Of a stretch of 50,817 bases of DNA, positions 39,574-46,774 are shown one piece after another. The notes below the pieces were generated by a model. That model made no database searches and was not told where the DNA came from. It saw only the letters and a program-made list of their open reading frames with translations. Each line of letters starts with the position of its first letter. Within the stretch, counting starts at the first letter, position 1. The position numbers and the translations under genes are program-made. Source of the DNA: Desulfobulbaceae bacterium (GTDB taxonomy: Bacteria > Desulfobacterota > Desulfobulbia > Desulfobulbales > Desulfobulbaceae); the NCBI GenBank assembly GCA_011389815.1, contig JAABTP010000010.1, positions 1 through 50,817 on the forward strand, in the 5' to 3' direction.

Positions 39574-39843
39574 AAAAACATCGTATTTATTTTAATACGT
39601 AATGCTCAGAACAATTTTTTTTCTTTTCAAACATTTTTCACTTTTCATTTTAGTACCACAGTGTAATATATGTATAGTCAAATATATATTCAGATCAGAT
39701 TATTATCACTTAACAACTTTATTTAACTTTCGAACAAGAAGAAAGGAGGACAAAAATGCAGCAGCTGAAAGGAGGTGATATTCAGGCTCTATGATCAAGT
39801 TGGATTGAAGTTATTTTTTTTCTTAATACGGAGGAAAACAAGT
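39574..39843 (+). other. AT-rich leader region of the multiheme cytochrome gene, with tiny reading frames
   Basis: The gap contains a weak inverted repeat (CGTATT/AATACG at 39582-39599) and a possible -10 box TAATAT at 39664-39669. Three strong Shine-Dalgarno sequences follow: AGGAGG at 39745-39750, GGAGGTGAT at 39771-39779, and GGAGG at 39832-39836. The first drives a 12-codon frame at 39756-39794 (MQQLKGGDIQAL); its stop overlaps an ATG at 39791 that opens a 5-codon frame (MIKLD); the third belongs to the cytochrome gene. These could be a translated leader that controls the cytochrome gene, or remnants. Confidence 0.45.
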
Positions 39844-41154
39844 ATGAAAGCAGTTACCATGCTGTTTCGGACAAGCTTGATACTTAGCTGTATTATGCTG
39901 TTCGCACACCCCCTTGCGGCCCAAGAAGGCAAAAAGAAAGTCAGCAAGAATCCCCATGCTGTTGTCACAAAAGAGGCAAACACTATTGACGAACTCGTCG
40001 ATATTCTGGACGAGAAGAAATGTGCCGAATGTCACCCTGAAATCTATAAAGAGTGGAAGGAGTCCTGGCATGCCAAGTCTGTCACATCTCCTGGTTCTAT
40101 AAAAGGTATTCATAATTTCCTTGCCATCGGTCTCCCTAAAGAATGGAAGAAACCGATAACCAAGGCCGAGGTGATGAAATGTTACGACTGTCATGCCCCG
40201 GTGATCCAGTACGCTTCTGAAAAACTGGCCGTTGAAATCGCTGAGAAAGTCATTACAGCCCATAAAGAGAAAGACAAACCAGCTGGGAAAAAAGCGGAAA
40301 AAGAGCTGTCCAAGCTGAATGTCGGCTGTGTTTCCTGTCATAATCTGAAGGCCACCTCTGTTGCCCGTGGCCTACGCGGAGCCCCCAAAAAAGGTGCCAT
40401 TTACGGCCCCACCGGTGCAGATAGCGACGGTGCTCATGAGACCATCAAGACCGTTGACATTACTCGCTCGGTCATGTGTATGCAATGTCATGGCAAGTAC
40501 AAAGCACCAGACGGAGAGACCATCCAGTGTAATACCCTATCCGGCAGTTTCCAGAACGCCTACCAAAGTAACGGCGGTACTGAAACCTGTCAGGACTGCC
40601 ACATGGAAAAAAATAGCAAGACTGGCAAAAAGAGCCATCTTATGCCTGGCGGTCATGATCTGGACATGGTGAAAAAAGGGCTCGGACTCAAGGTCAACTT
40701 TGCACAATATCGTCATCTTCCCGGCAAAATAAAGGGCGTAAAAAATGATAAAGCCTGGGTACCCAGTGCTGTGGTTACCGCCTTTGTGGAAAACAAGGCA
40801 GGGCATCGTATCCCGGACGGCTGACTGTGGTCAGGCAAAGTGGTCCTGGAAGTGACCGCACGAGATCTGTATGAAAAAGACCCCAAGAAACAAGTACTCT
40901 ACTCTGCGCAGAAAACCTGGTTTGAAATCGGCCTGGATATGGACCGGGATATGCGCTACGGTGCCTGGCAGATTAAAGAAATCATTGATCTGACCTTGCC
41001 TCCGATGCAGACGCAGAAGGTCGAACACCTGATGCATTTTGATTCTGATACCGAAGAGGTTGAAATCGAAGTGAAGCTGTTGTATTACATAAGCGGTGGA
41101 AAAGGTGATGTAATCTTTACAGAAAAGGAACAGTTTACCTATGAAATCGACTGA
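39844..41154 (+). CDS. Periplasmic pentaheme cytochrome c with an in-frame TGA codon at position 327
   Basis: From the ATG at 39844 (ribosome binding site GGAGG) the frame runs 326 codons to a TGA at 40822-40824 and continues in the same frame for 109 further codons to TGA at 41154. The N-terminus is a signal peptide (MKAVTMLFRTSLILSCIMLF, then AHPLAAQ). Five CxxCH motifs lie at residues 60, 113, 162, 212 and 249 (CAECH, CYDCH, CVSCH, CMQCH, CQDCH). The spacing recalls the cytochrome c554-like multihaem family. After the haem domain comes HRIPDG-TGA-LWSGKVVLEVTARD, whose beta-rich continuation looks like genuine coding sequence. The TGA may be selenocysteine, a recent nonsense mutation or a sequencing error; the annotation spans both parts. 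A terminator follows. Confidence 0.8.
40825..40860 (+). other. Hairpin-forming RNA segment directly after the in-frame TGA
   Basis: TGTGGTCA (40826-40833) can pair with TGACCGCA (40853-40860) as eight base pairs with one G-U, enclosing a 19-nt loop that itself has a GG/CC pair. It begins two bases after the TGA, as bacterial SECIS hairpins do. Competing folds exist (GTGGTC with GACCGC), and no apical loop clearly matches the SelB-binding consensus. Confidence 0.3.
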
Positions 41155-41198: not shown

Positions 41199-41237
41199 GG
41201 GCAAGACGAACCTTTTGTTGGTCTTGCCCCTTCTTTT
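41199..41237 (+). terminator. Rho-independent terminator after the multiheme cytochrome gene
   Basis: GGGCAAGAC (41199-41207) pairs with GTCTTGCCC (41221-41229) across a 13-nt loop that can extend pairing with AAC/GTT, followed by CTTCTTTTT. It lies 45 bp after the stop at 41154 and supports 41154 being the real end of the transcript that carries the in-frame TGA. Confidence 0.85.
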
Positions 41238-41540
41238 TGCAAAATACTCACGCCTTCCCTCCCCTCAATGTTTACATAAAAGTAACAAACCATACATTAG
41301 TAGACTACAGCAAACCATATTGACCAATTATTAAACAAAATATCTTTCCCACCAAGAAAAGTCATCCCTCTTTGCACTTCTATATTCCTTAGAAATTTCA
41401 ACAAAAACAAGATAATAGTCAAAATTCGTTTACCTCCAAGAAGAATGGCACATTCATTGCTAAACAAAACACATAACGCCAACAGATCTATACAACACCA
41501 TCTCTTTAAATGCACTGTTGACCGGTGAAGGAGCAGCTAA

Positions 41541-45049: not shown

Positions 45050-46774
45050 TCAGTTTTGCAGCAAATAATCCGTCACTGCCTCAAGTTCAGCTTCTGAGCC
45101 ACTAAAAGGTGCCATAATCTTATTTGCGGGGCTGGGAGGAGTACGGATAAAATCCATGAGTTCTGCCTTGTTACCCGCATATTTTTGGGCCATATTGGTC
45201 AGCTCAGGCCCCATTGATCCGCCCTCCCCTTTATAGGCATGACAGCCCTTACAAGTCAGCTGGAACACATGCTCACCTTCTACAACATCTCCGGCTGCTG
45301 GCTTTGCTTCATCACCAACGTCCTTTTGCACATCGTCTACAGCATCTCCGGCTGCTGGCTTTGCTTCATCACCAACGTCCTTTTGTACATCGTCTACAGC
45401 ATCTCCGGCTGCTGTTTTTGCTTCATCACCAACATCCTTTTGCACATCATCTACAGCATCTCCGGCTGCTGGCTTTGCTTCATCACCAACACCCTTTTGC
45501 AGCAAATAATCCGTCACTGCCTCAAGTTCAGCTTCTGAGCCACTAAAAGGCGTCATAACCATATTTGCAGGGCTGGGAGGAGTACGGATAAAATCCATGA
45601 GCACAGTCTTATTGCCCGCATATTTTTCGGCGATATTGGTCAGATCAGGCCCTATTGATCCGCCCTCTCCTTTATAGACATGACAACCTTTACACCCCTG
45701 AAAAACCTGCTTCCCGTCAATAATAGCTCCGACTGCTGACTTTGGTTCATCACCAACGCCCTTTTCCTTCATTGTTTTGGTAAACGTCTGATCCATACTC
45801 ATAACATTCCAGACCAAGTACGGCTTACGGGCTTTTTCACGGGTATATGCCCCCATAAAAAATGCAAAAAACATACAGAAAGAGGCGAATAAAAGAAAGA
45901 CTCTTCCTTTATCATGTTTACGAACCCAATAAATAATCGTAAGAATAACAGCAACTGTTGCCAGACCGATCATCATCCACAGAAAAGGCTGAGCAGCACC
46001 ACCAGAAAGCTGGGCCCAAGGATTAGGAACTGGCAGTTCTTCAGTTGATGATTTTACTTTGAGTAAAAAGAAAATACCTGAGATCGGCTGCAGAATAAGC
46101 AGGGAAGCACCGATAACCCCTGTAAATTTGTTGACCTTTGCATAATACGCTTGATCCTCACTCGGCTTCCTGGACTTCCAGTAGCTCCAGACAAACAGGA
46201 TCAAAGCAGCATTAATAAAACAGGGGATAATAATATGGGTGGTGGACTCGGTGAGAATGGGGGTAAAAAAAGCATCCCACCGAGACTGTGTCTCCATCCA
46301 CTTACCTGGAACCATCATGAATGCCCAAATACCATTAATCAAGACTCCGGCCATTATGGCGAAAAATCCTGTCAATAACCCGTAAAAAATGTGCATTGCG
46401 CGAGATGTTGTATCCCAGGTATTATGATAGATTACAGAAAAAATCATCAAAAGGAGGAAAACAGCACCCTCAGCTAAAAACGGCCAGAACTGCGTTGAAT
46501 ACAGAAAAGCACCAAATTTACTCCAAAGGCCTATGGTCAAGACCACAATGGCAACACCAAGTACACCATTAATCTTCATCATGTCGGAAAGGAACTTTGA
46601 CAGTCCTCTCGCAAGCCTATGATAATCGTTGTCGTTTTTTCTGCCTCCCCACCACTCAGAAAACACAGCCAGCACTGACCCACCAACTGCAAAAAAAGCA
46701 AAAAAAACGTGGGTCAGAATCACCACCGCCATAATAATAGTGTTACCCAAAAAGGGAAAATCTACCCGATCCAC
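45050..46774 (-). CDS. CydA-like cytochrome bd oxidase subunit fused to two cytochrome c domains
   Basis: The 574-residue membrane protein starts at a GTG (AGGAGG site 8 bp upstream). Residues 1-320 resemble subunit I of bd-type and bd-like quinol oxidases: His22 in VILTHVFFAFFAVGGS, acidic residues near FWPFLAEGAV, HIIIPCFINAAL (His180) and TREKARKPYLVW. Two class I cytochrome c domains follow, each with CKGCH (residues 361-365 and 508-512), GPDLTN/GPELTN and a Met ligand in MTPF/MAPF. A linker of 3.7 near-identical 19-residue repeats joins them. CydB is not adjacent, and the canonical GRQPW motif is not visible. It could move electrons between quinones and periplasmic cytochromes, or reduce oxygen; this is inference. 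Confidence 0.85.
   Translation of the reverse strand: MDRVDFPFLGNTIIMAVVILTHVFFAFFAVGGSVLAVFSEWWGGRKNDNDYHRLARGLSKFLSDMMKINGVLGVAIVVLTIGLWSKFGAFLYSTQFWPFLAEGAVFLLLMIFSVIYHNTWDTTSRAMHIFYGLLTGFFAIMAGVLINGIWAFMMVPGKWMETQSRWDAFFTPILTESTTHIIIPCFINAALILFVWSYWKSRKPSEDQAYYAKVNKFTGVIGASLLILQPISGIFFLLKVKSSTEELPVPNPWAQLSGGAAQPFLWMMIGLATVAVILTIIYWVRKHDKGRVFLLFASFCMFFAFFMGAYTREKARKPYLVWNVMSMDQTFTKTMKEKGVGDEPKSAVGAIIDGKQVFQGCKGCHVYKGEGGSIGPDLTNIAEKYAGNKTVLMDFIRTPPSPANMVMTPFSGSEAELEAVTDYLLQKGVGDEAKPAAGDAVDDVQKDVGDEAKTAAGDAVDDVQKDVGDEAKPAAGDAVDDVQKDVGDEAKPAAGDVVEGEHVFQLTCKGCHAYKGEGGSMGPELTNMAQKYAGNKAELMDFIRTPPSPANKIMAPFSGSEAELEAVTDYLLQN
45281..45490 (-). repeat. 57-bp in-frame tandem repeat in the linker between the two cytochrome c domains
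   Basis: Residues 429-498 of the CydA-like protein are four copies, the last incomplete, of a 19-residue unit reading VGDEAKPAAGDAVDDVQKD (one has T for P). The DNA copies are nearly identical, so amplification is recent. Confidence 0.92.

Follow-up and report, generated by a model that had tools for sequence, protein, structure and literature searches.

An in-frame UGA, very probably read as selenocysteine, in an ExtKL-type pentaheme cytochrome gene of a probable cable bacterium

The stretch of DNA analysed here (the window; 50,817 nt from a 4.0 Mb draft genome of a Desulfobulbaceae bacterium in 233 contigs) carries on its forward strand, at 39844..41154, an extKL-type gene which we treat as a single ORF. 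The frame runs from ATG 39844 to a TGA stop at 41152-41154, and a frame check found the TGA at 40822-40824 to be its sole internal stop, with 326 codons 5′ of it, 109 codons 3′ and the context GAC-GGC-TGA-CTG-TGG. The first-pass annotation of this DNA had described the same frame and context and had suggested selenocysteine (Sec) as a possible reading of the TGA in a pentaheme cytochrome. Read through, the gene would encode a c-type cytochrome of 436 residues with five hemes and with Sec at position 327. All five CXXCH motifs (residues 60, 113, 162, 212 and 249; 40021..40602, forward strand) lie 5′ of the TGA, and by eye the N-terminus has a signal-peptide-like stretch.

The start of the gene is preceded by a ribosome binding site, GGAGG (39830..39834, forward strand), kept in loci of the same genus; the block GGAGGAAAACAAGT 5′ of the ATG is identical in four of these (L009, L099, L100 and L101). 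Past the final stop there is, by eye, a terminator-like stem, GGGCAAGAC/GTCTTGCCC at 41199-41229, followed by the T-rich CTTCTTTTT (whole feature 41199..41238, forward strand), in agreement with the terminator proposed earlier; it is absent from the listing of our consensus scan, which was limited to loops of 3–8. About 50 bases 5′ of the cytochrome start, at 39768-39808, same-genus loci also keep a block AAGGAGGTGRT...GGCNCTATGAYCAA. By eye it contains a very short ORF, reading MIKLD in the window, MTKKN in both L009 and L100, MIK in L099 and MTKQD in L101. This may be a leader peptide or another regulator. Elsewhere in the window, Rfam at gathering scores returned two tRNAs and nothing else. 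On the reverse strand at 45050-46774 Pfam domains indicate a predicted protein whose N-terminal part resembles subunit I of cytochrome bd oxidase and is fused to cytochrome c domains, a combination that to our knowledge is uncommon.

The part of the gene 3′ of the TGA is truly coding. The cytochrome of Candidatus Electrothrix aarhusensis (L009) is 83% identical to the window protein. Over the 109 codons after the TGA the two genes differ 12, 2 and 34 times at codon positions 1, 2 and 3; third positions account for 134 of the 203 differences before the TGA and for 34 of the 48 after it.

The single-ORF assignment rests on a family profile, on a protein of deposited structure and on an AlphaFold model of the read-through chain. 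The predicted protein matches NCBIfam NF040886 with 421.7 bits (curated cut-off 250), a family named there ‘multiheme c-type cytochrome (seleno)protein ExtKL’; ExtKL with NF040886 appears in a table of a 2026 review, and a 2022 review (PMC9312934) lists a Sec-containing ‘cytochrome c family protein’. PDB entries 9wt8, 9wt9, 9wta, 9wtb and 9wtc describe MccSep, a multiheme cytochrome c selenoprotein, and include a U325A mutant. MccSep is a whole-length homologue (E ∼1e-162 with the family profile), and its chain position 325 (X; U325A in the mutant) aligns with Sec327 of the window protein. L043, whose Sec region is close to that of MccSep, is 30% identical to the window protein. The first-pass annotation had thought a Sec in a multihaem cytochrome unusual; this view has to be given up, as such cytochromes are a catalogued family with deposited structures, and neither a new family nor a new mechanism is described here. 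The MccSep entries were not among the 50 fold-search matches listed (copy to April 2026). In an open-access literature collection, searches for MccSep and its PDB codes gave no relevant paper, and a phrase search for a Sec cytochrome and a search for selenoproteins together with cable bacteria gave none; the words sought were also missing from the main text of PMC5029168 and PMC2398784.

We compared 76 sequences, the window included. Six loci do not reach the Sec column; the 70 sequences spanning it gave 71 rows, with codons TGA (61), TGT (5), TGC (1), GTT (2), ATC (1) and GAG (1); these rows come partly from identical or very near species (e.g. L016 and L086) and are not all independent. Cys thus occupies the column in 6 of 71 rows and Ile or Val in three rows that represent two genes, since the two GTT rows (L081 and L055) are one and the same gene. 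The GAG (Glu) row, L030, is distant, and its alignment at this column is not credible. Trp or Arg was found in none of the 71 rows. The alignment of homologues that had been proposed as a check therefore came out on the side of Sec, with TGA or Cys dominating the column. The TGA rows include Desulfobulbaceae, Thermodesulfatator and Nitrospirae records, and TGA recurs at the identical column in relatives with protein identity as low as ∼25%, which is not to be expected by chance. The five CXXCH motifs are retained in 59 of the 61 TGA rows; the exceptions are L017 and L022, whose frames, as extended, start past the motifs.

Scanning named genomes yielded 25 loci. In a sample of 395 genomes from the phylum, 40 genomes (our own included) had genes over the NF040886 cut-off; of 50 such genes, 43 had one in-frame TGA, six had no internal stop and one had a TAA. 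The column position was checked in 42 of the 43 TGA genes, the exception being that of G113, whose second piece is an additional over-cut-off row outside the 50. Within the same genus, the gene exceeds the cut-off in four of eight genomes and has a single TGA in every one of the four. Three of these are genomes other than our own, two of them assembled into 1 and 5 contigs; in the loci excised from these three, the TGA and its context are identical to those of the window.

Homologues with Cys in place of Sec (L082, L079 and L080b) are uninterrupted single frames. Two genomes of one genus (L080, G027:C12; L081, G203:C132) carry ExtKL paralogues with Ile or Val at the Sec position, indicating that the Sec residue has been lost from some ExtKL copies; in L080 a Cys copy adjoins the Ile copy. 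Another Cys-type copy (L083, G289:C11:70400-72100) has an in-frame TAA past the first heme motif and may be broken.

Just 3′ of the TGA we identified a hairpin of the bacterial SECIS type (40840..40859, forward strand): a stem 40840-40845/40854-40859, a bulged U at 40853, inner pairs 40846-40852 and 40847-40851, and an apical loop GGA situated 23 nt from the UGA. Published criteria for such elements (bSECIS; PMC13188914) are an apical loop of 3–9 nt with G in the first two positions, an upper stem of 4–16 pairs, 16–37 nt from UGA to loop and an energy of at most −7.5 kcal/mol. The window hairpin, with its loop GGA, eight pairs and one bulge, spacing of 23 nt and energy of −9.0 kcal/mol for the 30-nt stretch, lies within these limits; the SECIS check suggested in the first-pass annotation thus speaks for Sec. 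That annotation had itself drawn another stem, of eight pairs starting two bases past the TGA (40826-40833/40853-40860). It can be drawn here; however, it is poorly conserved: 46.0% of cells pair among 59 homologues, slid versions giving 26.7–41.9%, and its covariation score of 0.064 is below those of four of six slid versions. The hairpin to be retained is 40840-40847/40851-40859.

Conservation of this hairpin was assessed in a gapless alignment of 59 TGA rows (L011 and L016 were removed as duplicates over the 54 bases), with eight non-TGA rows as the comparison set (L030 and L055 left out). Across the seven pairs that entered the count, 92.5% of cells are paired, against 68.3% in the best slid version. 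Double-sided changes occur at four of the seven pairs, and no more than 2 of 500 shuffles reach any of the observed values; double-changed cells number 8 in the real hairpin and 9 in one slid version. The block GTGGTCCTGGA-GTGACCGC is almost invariant across the 59 TGA rows and is not retained in the eight non-TGA rows. Energies of −7.5 kcal/mol or lower in the 30-nt stretch were obtained for 53 of 59 TGA rows (six are weaker) and for none of the eight non-TGA rows. At fourfold sites whose amino acid is the same in 80% of rows or more, the most common third base within the hairpin (residues 334, 335, 337 and 338) has frequencies of 0.89, 0.96, 0.93 and 0.94; outside it the mean over 23 columns is 0.45, the highest value, 0.78, belonging to the codon immediately 5′ of the TGA. 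Residue 339 (0.40) was left out of both sets, its third base being located just past the stem.

RNAalifold gave no consensus structure for the 54-column alignment, so the case for the hairpin is built on the count of a named structure, the synonymous freeze and single-sequence folds. The fold of 40819-40866 is only mildly better than those of shuffled sequences (z −1.98; 6 of 200 at least as good), and four rows (L022, L038, L043 and L091) fold otherwise than the common hairpin. In L038 and L043 the usual hairpin is missing and an alternative, CCGAC...GTCGG, lies several bases closer to the UGA, which suggests a shifted SECIS. The Rfam model SECIS_1 (RF00031), which we take to be a model of the eukaryotic type, matched neither our genome nor any of 14 control genomes, which makes this search uninformative.

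The genome encodes the complete set of sel genes that had been named as a further check. A tRNA-Sec gene (selC) scores 69.3 bits (cut-off 47), and ARAGORN agrees (SeC); SelA, SelB and SelD score 619.5, 381.5 and 225.4 bits (the last joined). More widely, tRNA-Sec is over the cut-off in 39 of 40 genomes tested with ExtKL-like genes (the other 39 genomes over the NF040886 cut-off, plus G035, which is below it) compared with 5 of 14 control genomes; none was found in the draft G358, although it has a TGA gene. The selD gene (L084, G000:C116:6109-7089, outside the window) has an in-frame TGA of its own, GCG-TGA-VLK. Read as GCG-U-VLK it fits the UxxK motif, listed for Sec-containing SelD in the 2026 review. 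By eye a possible hairpin, TTCGAC-AGTTCT-GTCGAA, follows, its loop starting 20 nt past the TGA. Because selD also carries an in-frame TGA, there seem to be two or more Sec genes in this genome.

Each of the other ways to account for an in-frame TGA meets observations that it does not explain. A lone in-frame stop in a single genome would look alike if a nonsense mutation had struck a decaying gene; however, the TGA stands in 61 of 71 rows across genera, and frame and synonymous pattern are intact 3′ of it, making decay extremely improbable. Still less credence can be given to a sequencing or assembly error: the draft state of our genome would allow for one, but the same TGA is present in the single-contig and five-contig genomes of the genus as well as in the named Candidatus Electrothrix aarhusensis record. 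A frame open under an alternative code would look identical to ours, so UGA might be read as another amino acid (e.g. Trp), or read through without Sec. Yet UGA also terminates this same gene, the substitutes in the column are Cys (six rows) and Ile or Val (three), never Trp or Arg, and both Sec machinery and hairpin are present; we consider this explanation about as implausible as gene decay.

The alternative with the largest share of what probability remains, itself very small, is that of two genes, the first encoding a pentaheme cytochrome of 326 residues that stops at the UGA and the second a small protein of its own downstream. It has a published precedent, as the ExtKL homologue of Electrothrix communis RB was given a two-gene structure (EMBO Reports 2025, PMC11976967), the downstream gene being folded together with it in that work, and a mechanical ORF listing likewise divides L009 into 327 + 104 codons. 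Against it, the GTG at 40840 has, by eye, no clear ribosome binding site and falls at the very start of the conserved hairpin; the Cys homologues are single frames; NF040886 and MccSep both span the junction; and, in the AlphaFold model, one beta domain has strands on either side of the UGA. We are thus nearly certain, judging from sequence comparison, that the window gene is a single selenoprotein gene of the ExtKL / MccSep family, and the selenocysteine reading proposed in the first-pass annotation is borne out.

The model was made for the read-through chain with Sec entered as Cys (mean pLDDT 90.1). Sec327 sits in a loop between strands 306-317 and 332-341, directly past a conserved H-x-x-P-D-G motif, within a C-terminal beta domain (∼280-432, limits set by us); as strands of this domain flank the UGA on both sides, termination there would leave it incomplete. 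The pentaheme cytochrome c552 of Thermochromatium tepidum (PDB 5ze8) shares the overall fold (Z 23.9, rmsd 3.1; 310 residues aligned, model 36-431) and has Ala, neither Sec nor Cys, at the Sec position. For the structural work and the protein alignment, eight of the 70 rows were taken out as short or duplicate (L011, L016, L017, L019, L020, L022, L055 and L083). The remaining 62 sequences share the five CXXCH motifs, His76, His265, His321, Cys229, Pro119, Pro324 and Asp325 without exception. Only three invariant histidines thus lie outside CXXCH motifs for five hemes, which fits, without proving, an open-site heme of the kind that the cable-bacterial sPHC is viewed as having (PMC11976967).

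We propose that UGA 40822 would be read as selenocysteine by SelB and Sec-tRNA(Sec), with the hairpin shortly 3′ of it as the guide. Proteins with an export signal and CXXCH motifs are secreted and receive c-type hemes in the periplasm; the chain would likewise be exported and have five hemes attached there. Sec, perhaps with the invariant non-heme Cys229, may then handle the substrate while the hemes supply or take electrons. The model, the fold likeness and the invariant residues lead us to favour, by some margin of belief, a redox enzyme with Sec at or near its active site over a plain electron carrier. Sec could also be a heme ligand, and a Cys229-Sec327 bond could form.

For Geobacter, Jahan 2018 (PMC5877670) states that the extKL product had been proposed to contain Sec and may act in selenite reduction. 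The selenite role is a preliminary suggestion there, and selenite as substrate here would be a guess by analogy. Geobacter sulfurreducens ExtKL (GSU2937-2936) is a five-heme protein with a proposed Sec, over whose family cut-off the window protein scores. Its gene belongs to the cluster extHIJKLMNOPQS, which also encodes a porin-like protein and other cytochromes, unlike the window gene, whose neighbours are peptidyl-tRNA hydrolase, pseudouridine synthase, CoaE, adenylate kinase, SAICAR synthetase and AIM24-like proteins. The neighbours of L009 are different again, and within flanks of ∼0.2–3 kb tblastn found none of six window neighbours near homologues.

The source organism is probably a cable bacterium related to Candidatus Electrothrix, since L100, which comes from a genome assigned to the same genus, matches L009 letter for letter in the stretches printed. 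PMC11976967 describes sPHC as an ExtKL-like cable-bacterial group, potentially catalytic and with a two-gene structure in strain RB; no word starting ‘seleno’ occurs in the main text. A paralogue from our own genome (L098) has, aligned by eye, HTFPSTN at the Sec place, thus neither Sec nor Cys, and is perhaps an lPHC. The same split in L009, and one TGA in each of four of eight same-genus genomes, lead us to infer that the RB split falls at the same UGA. For the cable-bacterial ExtKL we favour one selenoprotein gene over two; our new point is modest, namely that the published two-gene homologue is probably better read as a single gene.

One could further suppose, tentatively and with rather less than even confidence in the whole, that this genus of cable bacteria has a selenoenzyme in its periplasm, where Sec327, perhaps partnered by Cys229, stands beside an open-site heme and acts on a chalcogen or an oxidant, the two-gene cytochrome of RB being this gene with its UGA mistaken for a stop. 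If so, part of the periplasmic electron handling of cable bacteria would depend on selenium. Taken at face value, the genetic code cuts a selenoprotein gene of a probable cable bacterium in two, and selenocysteine would be part of a kind of cytochrome that has been considered in connection with electron transfer by cable bacteria; this argues for correcting the two-gene reading, and Sec327 offers a concrete residue to test.
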